This document shows positions 41,004 through 44,420 of a stretch of DNA of 64,000 bases, in pieces. Source of the DNA: Candidatus Villigracilaceae bacterium (lineage in GTDB: Bacteria; Chloroflexota; Anaerolineae; Anaerolineales; Villigracilaceae). A model generated the notes under the pieces. That model was not told the DNA's origin. It worked only from the letters and a program-made list of their open reading frames with translations, and ran no database searches. The position numbers were made by a program, and so were the translations under genes. Where the stretch lies: positions 62,001 to 126,000 of the forward strand of contig JAPKMP010000002.1 of assembly GCA_026645935.1 (NCBI GenBank), written 5' to 3'. Every line of letters starts with the position of its first letter. Within the stretch, counting starts at the first letter, position 1.

Positions 41004-41975
41004 CTACTTCTTCGCCGGCTTGGACATTTCATCCACAACAGCGTTGTACAACACTTCTGCTTTCAATTCGCTGAGCGAGTAGCATGGCGCTTCGAGGTGG
41101 TCTGCCAGTTGCTGGGCGAGACCCTGGTCGAATGCGGCGTGCTCCATGTTGATGACAACCGAGCGGATTTTCTCATTCGCGATCAATTCTGCAAATTTGA
41201 ATCCCTCTTCCTGGGGCGGTAGAGTGCCCAGGGAAACATTCCCAGCCCCATCGGTCAGGATGATAAGAAGCGGCTCCACATCGGGGTGGATGTGTTTCTC
41301 GTGCATCAATACATCATGCGCCATGAATAACCCTGCCGAGAGAGGGGTCTTCCCGCCGACGGGAATGTCCATCAATGCGCGCTGAGCCAGGTGAACGGAG
41401 TTGGTGGGCGAGAGCACGAGCGTGGCGCGGTCTTTTTGGAAGACAATAAGCCCCACCCGGTCGCGGCGCTGATACGCATCGGTCAGCAGCGAAAGGATCG
41501 CGCCTTTTGTCGCGTTCATGCGCTCCGCCACTGCCATGGACCAGGACGCATCTACGAGGAATAACACAAGGTTCGCTACACGCTTGACGCGGATCTTGCG
41601 CTGCAGGTCGCTCTTCTTGATCGAAAAGGCGAGTTTCTTGCGTTCCTCTGTGCGTTGTTTTTGGAATGGCGCCGCGGCGCGGAAAGTGGCATCGAAGGCG
41701 ATGTCGTTCAGTTTATCCCCGGCGGGGCGGGATTTAATGTAACGTCCGTGTTTGCGCTCGGTCTTGGTGAGCGAACGCCGTCCCGCCTGCTTGCGAGTCA
41801 GTTTATCGAGCGGAGTGTTCAATTTGCGCGGTTGGAAGGTGTCTCCGGCTTTGACTTTTTGTCCGCCTTCCCACCAGTTCGCGCTCGTGCTGGCGAAGAC
41901 CTCCCGATTTTCCATCGGTTCGGGATTGCCTTCCTGCGCCCCCTCCTCGGTCTGCTCATCCTCGAGTTTTAAGTT
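41004..41975 (-). CDS. Chelatase ChlD-like part (VWA domain), read by -1 frameshift from the ChlI frame
   Basis: The frame carries an acidic, Pro-containing linker and a C-terminal von Willebrand A domain with the MIDAS motif DASWSMA and the TDGAGN motif, as in ChlD/BchD/CobT-like chelatase subunits. It has no good start: the first ATG (41915) lacks a Shine-Dalgarno, while coding character continues upstream as LEDEQTEEGAQEGNPEP to the A-run at 41974-41982 where the ChlI frame ends. A -1 shift there would give one protein of about 688 residues. If translated alone from 41915 it has 303 residues. Confidence 0.8.
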   Translation of the reverse strand, partial: NLKLEDEQTEEGAQEGNPEPMENREVFASTSANWWEGGQKVKAGDTFQPRKLNTPLDKLTRKQAGRRSLTKTERKHGRYIKSRPAGDKLNDIAFDATFRAAAPFQKQRTEERKKLAFSIKKSDLQRKIRVKRVANLVLFLVDASWSMAVAERMNATKGAILSLLTDAYQRRDRVGLIVFQKDRATLVLSPTNSVHLAQRALMDIPVGGKTPLSAGLFMAHDVLMHEKHIHPDVEPLLIILTDGAGNVSLGTLPPQEEGFKFAELIANEKIRSVVINMEHAAFDQGLAQQLADHLEAPCYSLSELKAEVLYNAVVDEMSKPAKK

Positions 41976-43069
41976 TTTTTTTCCTCTTTTTCGCCTTCCT
42001 TGCCGCTTTCGGATTGTTCATCCTCGTCGCTCGGCATGGATTGACCCGCCAACTGCTCGATGCGTTCCTGCAATTGTTCGGTGGTCATCTCCGCCTGTTG
42101 GAACGGCGTCCGCTTGATGCGGTGAGGGAGAGCGAGTTCGGCGGCGAGGGCGATGTCGTGATCGTTGATCTTGGTGCGGCCCTCCAGGGCGGCTTCAGCT
42201 CGCGCGGCTTTGAGGATGACCATATCTGCGCGGTGGCCATCCACGTTCAGAGAAGCGGTCAGCGCCGCAATCGAAAGCAGGTCGCGCGTGCTGTATTTAA
42301 CCTGGTCCACCAATTCACGTGCGTTGGCGATCTGCTTGGAAAGTTCCTCTTCCTTCGGGAGCCATTGCTTGCGGAAGGCTTCAGGATCACGTTCGTAGGC
42401 GATGTTGCGTTCCATGATCGTCATGCGTTCGCGCGCATCGCGGATTCCCACGATGTCGACGGACAGCGCGAAGCGGTCCAGCAGCTGGGGACGCAGATCC
42501 CCTTCTTCAGGATTCATCGTCCCGACGAGGATGAAGCGGGCGGGATGCGCGAAGGAGATGCCTTCCCGTTCCACCGTGTTTACCCCCATGGCGGCTGAAT
42601 CCAAAAGGATATCCACCACGTGGTCGTCGAGCAGGTTCACTTCGTCGATGTAGAGCAATCCGCGGTTGGCATTGGCTAGCACGCCCGGCTCGAAGTGACG
42701 CTCGCCTTTTTGAATGGCTTTTTCGATGTCCAGAGTGCCGACCACACGGTCCTCCGTGGCGGAGACAGGCAGGTTAATGAACGGGGTGGAACGTTCAGAA
42801 TAGGGAAGTTTTTTGCTCGAAGCGGCGCGTTCCTTGCACTCCGTGCACCAGGTTCCGGGTTTATCGGGATCGCAGCCAAAGCGGCAATCCTGAACCACTT
42901 TTACATGGGGAAGAAGTGCGGCAAGCGAACGCGCGGCGGTGGATTTGGCTGTGCCGCGTTCACCGCGGATCAACACGCCGCCGATGCGGGTATCCACGGC
43001 GTTGAGAATGAGCGCGCGCCTCATGCGCTCCTGGCCGACGATAGCAGTAAAGGGGAAAATGGCAGGCAT
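41969..43069 (-). CDS. Magnesium/cobalt chelatase ATPase subunit (ChlI/CobS-like)
   Basis: The 366-residue AAA+ protein has Walker A GERGTAKST (36-44), Walker B LYIDEVNLLDDHVVD, the arginine-rich GTMNPEEGDLRPQLLDRF sensor region and the family C-terminal four-helix part. It is the ATPase motor subunit of a Mg- or Co-chelatase inserting metal into a tetrapyrrole. The frame ends with an acidic tail (EEGEKEEKKT-like) at TAA 41969, immediately after a run of nine A where the ChlD frame takes over. GGAG precedes the ATG. Which metal is used cannot be seen. Confidence 0.92.
   Translation of the reverse strand: MPAIFPFTAIVGQERMRRALILNAVDTRIGGVLIRGERGTAKSTAARSLAALLPHVKVVQDCRFGCDPDKPGTWCTECKERAASSKKLPYSERSTPFINLPVSATEDRVVGTLDIEKAIQKGERHFEPGVLANANRGLLYIDEVNLLDDHVVDILLDSAAMGVNTVEREGISFAHPARFILVGTMNPEEGDLRPQLLDRFALSVDIVGIRDARERMTIMERNIAYERDPEAFRKQWLPKEEELSKQIANARELVDQVKYSTRDLLSIAALTASLNVDGHRADMVILKAARAEAALEGRTKINDHDIALAAELALPHRIKRTPFQQAEMTTEQLQERIEQLAGQSMPSDEDEQSESGKEGEKEEKKT
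41973..41989 (-). promoter_or_regulatory. Probable -1 programmed frameshift site (A9)
   Basis: On the minus strand AAAGAGG precedes nine A (41982-41974) and then CTT. In the ChlI frame the codons are GAA-AAA-AAA-ACT-TAA; slipping back one base gives AAA-AAC-TTA-AAA and joins the ChlD frame. The AGAGG just upstream resembles a Shine-Dalgarno stimulator. Confidence 0.7.
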
Positions 43070-43146
43070 CTATTTACTCCAGCCCGTGATTATAACGCTT
43101 GTTTATCAAAGCAGCGCATTTTCGCAACGGTTTACGTGCATGAGGG

Positions 43147-43175
43147 TTGTCAACTTGTCGTTTCACTTGTATAAT
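43147..43175 (+). promoter_or_regulatory. rpsA promoter
   Basis: TTGTCA (43147-43152), 17 bases, TATAAT (43170-43175), 33 bases before the GTG start. Confidence 0.7.
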
Positions 43176-43208
43176 CCCGCTCATATTTCGATTAGCCGGA
43201 GTTCACGA

Positions 43209-44420
43209 GTGACTGACCAAAAAGAAACCCTGAGCGGGACATCAAATGCGCAGGGAGATCAGAACAACAATCAATCGATGGAGGCGCTGTTAGCATCTGA
43301 ATCGTTGAGCATTGATCTTCCCAAGGCAGGCGAGATTCGCAAAGGGACCATAGCAAGTATTTCACCGAACCAAATCCTGATCAGTATCGGGGCGAAGTCC
43401 GAGGGTGTTGTCGCGGGCAAGGAACTGGAGCAGTTGACCCAGGAGGAGCGCGAAGCCCTCAAGGTCGGTCAAGAATTGGATGTTTTTGTCATCGTTCCCG
43501 AAGACGCGAACGGCAATGTTGTCCTTTCGCTAAAGCGCGCCTTCGAGCAGATCGCTTGGGAAAACGTGGAAAAAATGATCACCGATGAGACCGTGCTGGA
43601 TACCAAGATCATCGGTTTCAACAAGGGCGGGCTCATCGCCGCGGTCGGCAACCTGCGCGGCTTCATTCCTTCATCGCAGATCAGCGCCGCGCGCCGCGCC
43701 CAATCCACCGGCGACAAACCCGAACAACGTTATCAGAAGATGGTTGGCCAGCCCATTTCCGTACGAATCGTGGAAGTGGATCGTGAACGCCGTCGATTGA
43801 TCCTATCCGAACGCGCTGCCAGCGCGGAATCCCGTTCCGAGTTAAAGGAACGCGTCATCAACGAACTCCAGGAAGGGCAGACCTATTCAGGCCGGGTAAC
43901 CAGCCTGGCAGACTTCGGCGCTTTTGTCAACATCAACGGCGCAGACGGTCTCGTCCATCTTTCAGAAATCTCCTGGGACCATGTCACTCATCCCAAGGAA
44001 GTGCTTGAAGTGGGGCAGGAGGTCAACGTCAAGGTCATCAACATCGACCGCGATAAGAAGCGCATTGGGCTTTCCATCCGCGCCTTGCAGGAAGATCCCT
44101 GGAAGAGCCGCATGTCGAAGTTCAGCGTCGGTCAACTCGTGGAGGGCGCGATCACGCGGCTGACGAAGTTCGGCGCATTCGCCAGGCTCGAAGGCGATAT
44201 CGAGGGTCTCATCCACATCTCCGAGTTGAGCGAGAACCGTGTCGAACATCCCAAGGAAGTTTTGCATGAGGGCGATGTTAAGACCCTGCGCATCATCCGC
44301 ATCGACCCCGACCAGCATCGCATCGGCTTGAGCCTCCGAAAAGTCGACTCAGCCGCCTACGCCGACAAAGACTTCAAGATGCTCACCAAAGACTTCGGTC
44401 AGGACGAAAACAAGGAGTAA
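43209..44420 (+). CDS. rpsA: 30S ribosomal protein S1
   Basis: The 403-residue protein holds four S1 domains: GEIRKGTIASISPNQILISI, DTKIIGFNKGGLIAAVGNLRG, GQTYSGRVTSLADFGAFVNI and GQLVEGAITRLTKFGAFARL open them in order. The third and fourth are the most canonical. S1 binds mRNA at the ribosome and helps initiation. The four-domain form is shorter than the six-domain S1 of enterobacteria. The start is GTG 43209 with GGAG seven bases upstream; the longer open frame overlaps the chelatase gene and is rejected. A clean promoter and terminator flank the gene. Confidence 0.92.
   Translation: MTDQKETLSGTSNAQGDQNNNQSMEALLASESLSIDLPKAGEIRKGTIASISPNQILISIGAKSEGVVAGKELEQLTQEEREALKVGQELDVFVIVPEDANGNVVLSLKRAFEQIAWENVEKMITDETVLDTKIIGFNKGGLIAAVGNLRGFIPSSQISAARRAQSTGDKPEQRYQKMVGQPISVRIVEVDRERRRLILSERAASAESRSELKERVINELQEGQTYSGRVTSLADFGAFVNINGADGLVHLSEISWDHVTHPKEVLEVGQEVNVKVINIDRDKKRIGLSIRALQEDPWKSRMSKFSVGQLVEGAITRLTKFGAFARLEGDIEGLIHISELSENRVEHPKEVLHEGDVKTLRIIRIDPDQHRIGLSLRKVDSAAYADKDFKMLTKDFGQDENKE

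Follow-up and report, generated by a model that had tools for sequence, protein, structure and literature searches.

Organization of the locus

The window, by which we mean the whole stretch of 64,000 nucleotides analysed here, carries a chlD-type gene on its minus strand, the two halves of which lie in different frames that meet at a run of nine A. The sequence-only reading had described these frames at the same coordinates, although it left the strand unmentioned. The features are the following:

43069..41969, minus strand: ChlI-type AAA+ frame, giving the short product of 366 aa; matches TIGR02442 positions 1-355 and PDB 8osf
41987-41983, minus strand: AGAGG, resembling a Shine-Dalgarno sequence; abuts the A9 run, without the dnaX spacing
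41982-41974, minus strand: A9 slippery run, read GAA AAA AAA ACT in the ChlI frame; contains A AAA AAA
41971-41969, minus strand: TAA, stop codon of the ChlI frame, two bases past A9
41978..41004, minus strand: -1 frame with an acidic linker and a VWA domain, the second half of the long product of 688 aa
41915, minus strand: first ATG of the VWA frame

Both halves belong to one family, NCBIfam TIGR02442, with the ChlI half covering profile positions 1-355 and the VWA half positions 350-640. Among structures in the PDB, the ChlI half matches ChlI (8osf, 1e-100), and the VWA half matches the VWA part of the magnesium-chelatase 60 kDa subunit (2x31, 5e-18). In the open reading frames of the window, the VWA frame is in -1 relative to the ChlI frame and is open across A9. 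As had been claimed, the ChlI frame stops right after the run, the -1 frame carries the linker and the VWA domain, and AGAGG lies before the run, which it directly adjoins. As in fs-chlD genes, the gene is thus split between two frames, with an ATPase half of the ChlI type in one and a VWA half of the same family in the other. There is a single copy of chlD in the genome, the remaining matches to TIGR02442 being weak (best E 1.9e-14).

Conservation of the run and of the two halves

The A9 run is the only run of eight or more A in the window, in which both A8 matches lie inside it, against 6.3 expected from shuffles. Runs of at least nine A number two in 1.49 Mb of flanking DNA (both strands counted, slip site removed) and seven in the whole genome, including that of chlD. 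Two other A9/T9 runs of this genome, L259 (G000:C69:64445-64453) and L258, are each enclosed by a stop-to-stop frame, of 553 and 348 aa.

For the comparison with related genomes, we assembled 93 distinct loci, leaving out the copies of the window (L001-L003), loci with no ChlI match (L004-L008), a locus at a contig end (L029), and exact duplicates. One of the 93, L098, ends at a contig edge, so that its VWA frame is not visible, and was dropped in a later step. Sixty further loci comprised 45 of the -1 type, four in frame, four in another frame without a run, two truncated, and five second ChlI-like genes; the 93 loci and the 45 together gave 127 after the removal of 11 identical junctions. 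An in-frame A AAA AAA is kept in all 93 loci, and the VWA frame is in -1 in all 92 in which it is visible, with runs of A9 in 86, A10 in three, A8 in one, and A7 in three. In the wider sample, both the run and the in-frame heptamer are present in 127 of the 127 distinct -1-type loci (A9 in 106, A7 in 11, A10 in nine, A8 in one). An A-rich slippery site at the frame change is therefore conserved in relatives, as it is in fs-chlD genes, and a run of at least nine A that is conserved here and rare elsewhere is also what transcriptional slippage calls for.

The protein is conserved as well. In the near relative L010 (genome G032), 72 of the 2066 bases of the gene differ from the window, while the protein is 100% identical in both halves. 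Within the same genus, the ChlI half was found in 30 of 37 genomes, and one of the other seven, G025, has the end of the VWA half only. Walker A and Walker B patterns are kept in 127/127 loci and the DxSxS metal-site motif in 123/124 (a looser TDG pattern in 103/124), and because of this both halves look active as judged from their motifs. G045 has two copies of the gene: L155, which keeps the run, and L154, which is diverged, lacks it, and has the VWA half in another frame. At L043:7797-7940, the final 48 residues of the VWA half occur again downstream of the gene (tblastn, 94% identity).

The sequence-only reading had itself raised the alternative of an indel in a homopolymer. Such an error is excluded, given that 93 loci keep A AAA AAA and that every visible VWA frame among them is in -1; none of the 93 is a relative with one unbroken frame and no A-run. 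More broadly, it is extremely improbable that sequencing or assembly error, gene decay, or phase variation accounts for the split gene. Run length does vary within one genus, with A9 in G127 and A10 in G306 and G307, but the same run and frame recur across the 93 loci, the 72 base differences from L010 change no residue, and the Walker and DxSxS motifs persist as described above.

A different possibility is that these are two separately translated genes, with the VWA protein made from its own ATG (41915) by reinitiation, and many close loci do have an ATG 53-56 bases past the ChlI stop. Nevertheless, a four-base match resembling a Shine-Dalgarno sequence precedes the first start of the VWA frame in only 4 of 126 loci, as against 95 of 127 for the ChlI start, in agreement with the earlier claim that this frame has no Shine-Dalgarno of its own, and in 49 of the 126 that first start is over 60 bases past the run. 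Moreover, the VWA frame is already coding ahead of that ATG. In 70 close loci, base diversity at codon positions 1, 2, and 3 is 0.03, 0.04, and 0.44 in codons 3-8 of the -1 frame, and 0.24, 0.12, and 0.45 in codons 8-22, still before the first ATG; the first three codons are invariant through the choice of the 70-locus subset and were given no evidential weight. This diversity is of the coding type, and coding sequence ahead of the first ATG, as had been noted from the single sequence, is thus real. Reinitiation is thus very unlikely, and an independent VWA gene is ruled out for the clade of the window by the coding sequence before the ATG together with the missing Shine-Dalgarno.

Two probable products from one gene

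Comparison across genomes shows both that relatives keep the run together with the relation of the two frames and that the VWA frame is coding from the run onward. We therefore favor, with a probability of about 0.9, the reading in which one gene gives two proteins through slippage on A9. Without a slip, translation would end in the 366-aa AAA+ ATPase; with a -1 change on A9, the product would be the 688-aa protein of ATPase, linker, and VWA domain. The change could arise in either of two ways: RNA polymerase may add one A to the mRNA, or the ribosome may step back one base on A AAA AAA. We infer from the sequences that both proteins are present in the cell, where the short and the long form may build a mixed AAA+ complex. 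Of the earlier proposal of a programmed frameshift that makes two chelatase subunits, the short ATPase and the ATPase-VWA form are supported by the comparison, while "chelatase" holds as a family name only; in the same manner, the -1 relation is upheld, while slippage by RNA polymerase may take the place of ribosomal frameshifting. That chlD genes of other prokaryotes give two products, as the sequence-only reading had stated, is published with reporter data from other species (PMC3711429, PMC9227772). The two-product reading is supported, yet it has already been published for the gene family (fs-chlD, 2013-2022, Anaerolineaceae included).

Ribosome or RNA polymerase

As to the machine that slips, we give RNA polymerase about an even chance and ribosomal -1 frameshifting a somewhat smaller one, with most of the remaining probability going to polymerase and ribosome acting together. 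In the window, RNA polymerase is no less likely than the ribosome to be the slipping machine, because there is no stem downstream: a folding test without pseudoknots gave no excess of stimulatory structure there (z -0.66, a value at least as low being reached by 22% of shuffles).

That the ribosome alone makes the long protein, by programmed -1 frameshifting on A AAA AAA, the mechanism that has been published for other members of fs-chlD, is a serious contender, if short of even odds. The in-frame heptamer is present in all 127 -1-type loci, and the A7 runs lie in the one phase that yields it in 11 of 11 cases, most with strong stems just downstream. In family f45 (A7), which is probably Herpetosiphon, the stems reach 12-13 bp, with L188 and L190 using different pairs to close them. 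The reporter data of the family have also been interpreted as programmed frameshifting (PMC3711429). On the other hand, any A9 contains an in-frame A AAA AAA whatever its phase, so that the heptamer is unavoidable there, and A9-10 runs do occur in every codon phase (89 A9 and seven A10 in phase 1, 12 A9 in phase 2, five A9 and two A10 in phase 0). The window and most A9-10 families lack excess structure, AGAGG lies directly against the run, and a -1 step cannot reach the layout of G306 and G307, which have A10 with the VWA half in +1. Through the same unavoidable heptamer, the ribosomal route is open at A9 too.

Folding against synonymous shuffles separates the two classes of run. Families with A7-8 average z -1.18 and 8.0-bp stems (six groups), as compared with 0.09 and 5.0 bp in those with A9-10 (21 groups), with p values of 0.010 and 0.004 by family group, a test that covers loci with a family code, so that neither L113, an A7 locus that has a stem, nor most of the named-record loci are included; the contrast by locus, over a shorter stretch, gives p 0.001. 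There are exceptions, namely L156 (A9 with a 15-bp stem) and L121 (A8 without one). With moderate confidence, we assign A7 with a stem to the ribosome and A9-10 to RNA polymerase.

Further evidence points both ways. The polymerase route is favored by G306 and G307 (A10, VWA in +1) standing beside G127 (A9, in frame). Slippage in both directions by polymerase would favor an early stop in +1, and against this route three in-frame relatives (L135, L136, and L138) lack one. Among the -1-type loci, 118 of 127 have a +1 stop within 10 codons past the run (control 0.23), but these stops carry little weight because acidic codons can produce them (GAT GAx giving TGA). Reporters of the fs-chlD family gave 63, 40, and 10% for 11, 9, and 7 A, that is, more slippage with more A (PMC3711429), an effect that fits both routes. 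At the Glu codon within AGAGG, GAG makes up 54 of 59 Glu codons, while in the body of the gene its share is 671 of 2117; because the loci are related, a binomial p for this contrast should not be taken literally. The G that precedes the last codon of this stretch is thus kept beyond codon usage and might be a ribosomal element. A Shine-Dalgarno of the dnaX type was also considered for AGAGG and rejected: the element adjoins the run, which is the wrong place, even though its G is conserved. In E. coli dnaX, the Shine-Dalgarno lies farther from the slippery site.

The run persists while the VWA frame moves

In 18 in-frame chlD loci, there is a run of 7-10 A at the same place. These are all 15 sampled genomes of family f35, which is presumably Chloroflexaceae, together with G127 (from the family of the window), G245, and G261. 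A -1 stop follows the run within five codons in 16 of the 18 and within 12 in all 18 (controls 0.19 and 0.36); 13 of the 18 also have a +1 stop inside the first 12 codons (control 0.33). All 15 genomes of f35, where the gene appears intact, keep the run and have a -1 stop no more than five codons beyond it. G306 and G307, with their +1 layout, belong to the genus of G127, the run lengths of all three being taken from draft assemblies. The run is absent from 48 further distinct chlD loci of the in-frame kind.

On a tree of 72 hand-picked proteins, the presence of the run changes once and polarity (-1 or in frame) four times, with at least three gains or losses of the in-frame state forced by well-supported branches. 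A second tree, from which four long rows were dropped and to which four loci with another frame and no run were added, has two changes of the run, one of them probably a loss in L184, and again four of polarity; both trees are quick ones with some long branches.

Two simple rules for the presence of the run were discarded. A lone chlD without a separate chlI does not always come with a slip site: in all 15 sampled genomes of family f33 (L208-L222), another orphan arrangement, the one chlD is in frame and without an A-run, and we found neither a second match at E 1e-60 nor any to CobN/ChlH. Nor does a separate ChlI-like gene remove the need for a run, as several families of the order have both. 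The five second ChlI-like genes fetched from other families of the order (L203-L207) are 36-40% identical to that of the window, and one of them hits the Mg_chelatase and AAA_lid_2 models, with a weak match to a MoxR model as well.

Taken jointly, these observations lead us to a broader reading, in which our confidence is evenly balanced. In Chloroflexota chlD, the run may be the conserved unit while the VWA frame moves among -1, 0, and +1, so that intact-looking genes would hide a short ATPase. For instance, f35 (probably phototrophs of the Chloroflexus type) may produce, through a -1 slip in the manner of dnaX, a short ATPase that is absent from its annotation. The machine would change as well, being the ribosome at A7-8 with a stem and RNA polymerase at A9-10 without one, and lineages without CobN/ChlH would use both proteins for a job other than chelation. 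We found no description of an in-frame run or of polarity changes in the literature searched; Antonov (2020), which reportedly deals with fs-chlD genes, and most subscription papers lay beyond its scope. The 2013 paper treats the Chloroflexus aggregans gene as a plain fusion (PMC3711429).

A chelatase family without its large subunit

The large subunit CobN/ChlH (PF02514) was found in 0 of 61 genomes (that of the window and its relatives) and in 5 of 14 controls, and CbiC (PF02570), of the corrin pathway, in 2 of the 61, the window's own genome not among them, and in 7 of 14 controls. Elsewhere in the phylum, CobN/ChlH is present, in 15 of 15 genomes of f35 and 5 of 6 of f45. Because of these counts, a chelatase role in this order is unsupported, and "chelatase subunits" is here only the name of a family. 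As neither CobN/ChlH nor CbiC was found in the genome of the window, the putative complex probably acts on another target, by analogy with remodelling ATPases of the MoxR/VWA type, and an AAA+/VWA remodelling complex is our best guess. The 2022 paper likewise considers a chelatase role unsupported for Brevefilum and calls the role of a ChlI-ChlD pair without the large subunit unexplored (PMC9227772).

Divergent from chlD, a gene with four S1-domain repeats (PF00575) occupies 42939-44420 of the window. Such a neighbor is found beside chlD in 47 of 64 loci, a count based on 64 of the 80 named-record loci plus the window, where an overlap filter removed the window's own S1 gene. Among the neighbors at these loci, nothing points to a named function.

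These results confirm a recoding event in uncultured bacteria. Across the loci, frame, run length, and stem have changed at a single recoding site that retained its run, and this natural series makes two questions testable: why cells maintain both products of the gene, and what function ChlI and ChlD serve where the large subunit is missing.

Comparison with known systems

The closest known system is that of the fs-chlD genes (Antonov et al. 2013, PMC3711429; Kuznetsov et al. 2022, PMC9227772), which likewise combine a ChlI-type ATPase frame and an A-run with a VWA domain in -1. Anaerolineaceae and Brevefilum are named there as having fs-chlD without cobN (PMC9227772), while the accessible parts of PMC3711429 and PMC9227772 do not name the source taxon of the window. 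In the published genes as far as described there, a downstream stem is usual and the sites are shorter (PMC9227772), whereas the window has A9 and no stem was found in it. Both halves also belong to the sequence family of the cobalt and magnesium chelatase subunits ChlI/ChlD and CobS/CobT, from which the present case differs in the absence of CobN/ChlH from the 61 genomes and in the rarity of CbiC, found in two of them and not in that of the window.

The dnaX gene offers a parallel outside the family. There too, a single gene yields both a short ATPase and a longer form that carries an extra domain, and an A9 run is accompanied by near stops in other frames; the machine is RNA polymerase slipping on A9 in Thermus thermophilus and the ribosome shifting to -1 in E. 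coli (PMC1088944, PMC5009743). The job of dnaX is unrelated, and its long form is the in-frame product in both species, unlike that of the window's chlD, which is the -1 product; the in-frame chlD relatives have the polarity of dnaX. Against this background, our results suggest three additions to the published picture: the absence of the chelatase partner, the split between A-run length and stem, and a run that outlasts changes of the VWA frame among -1, 0, and +1.
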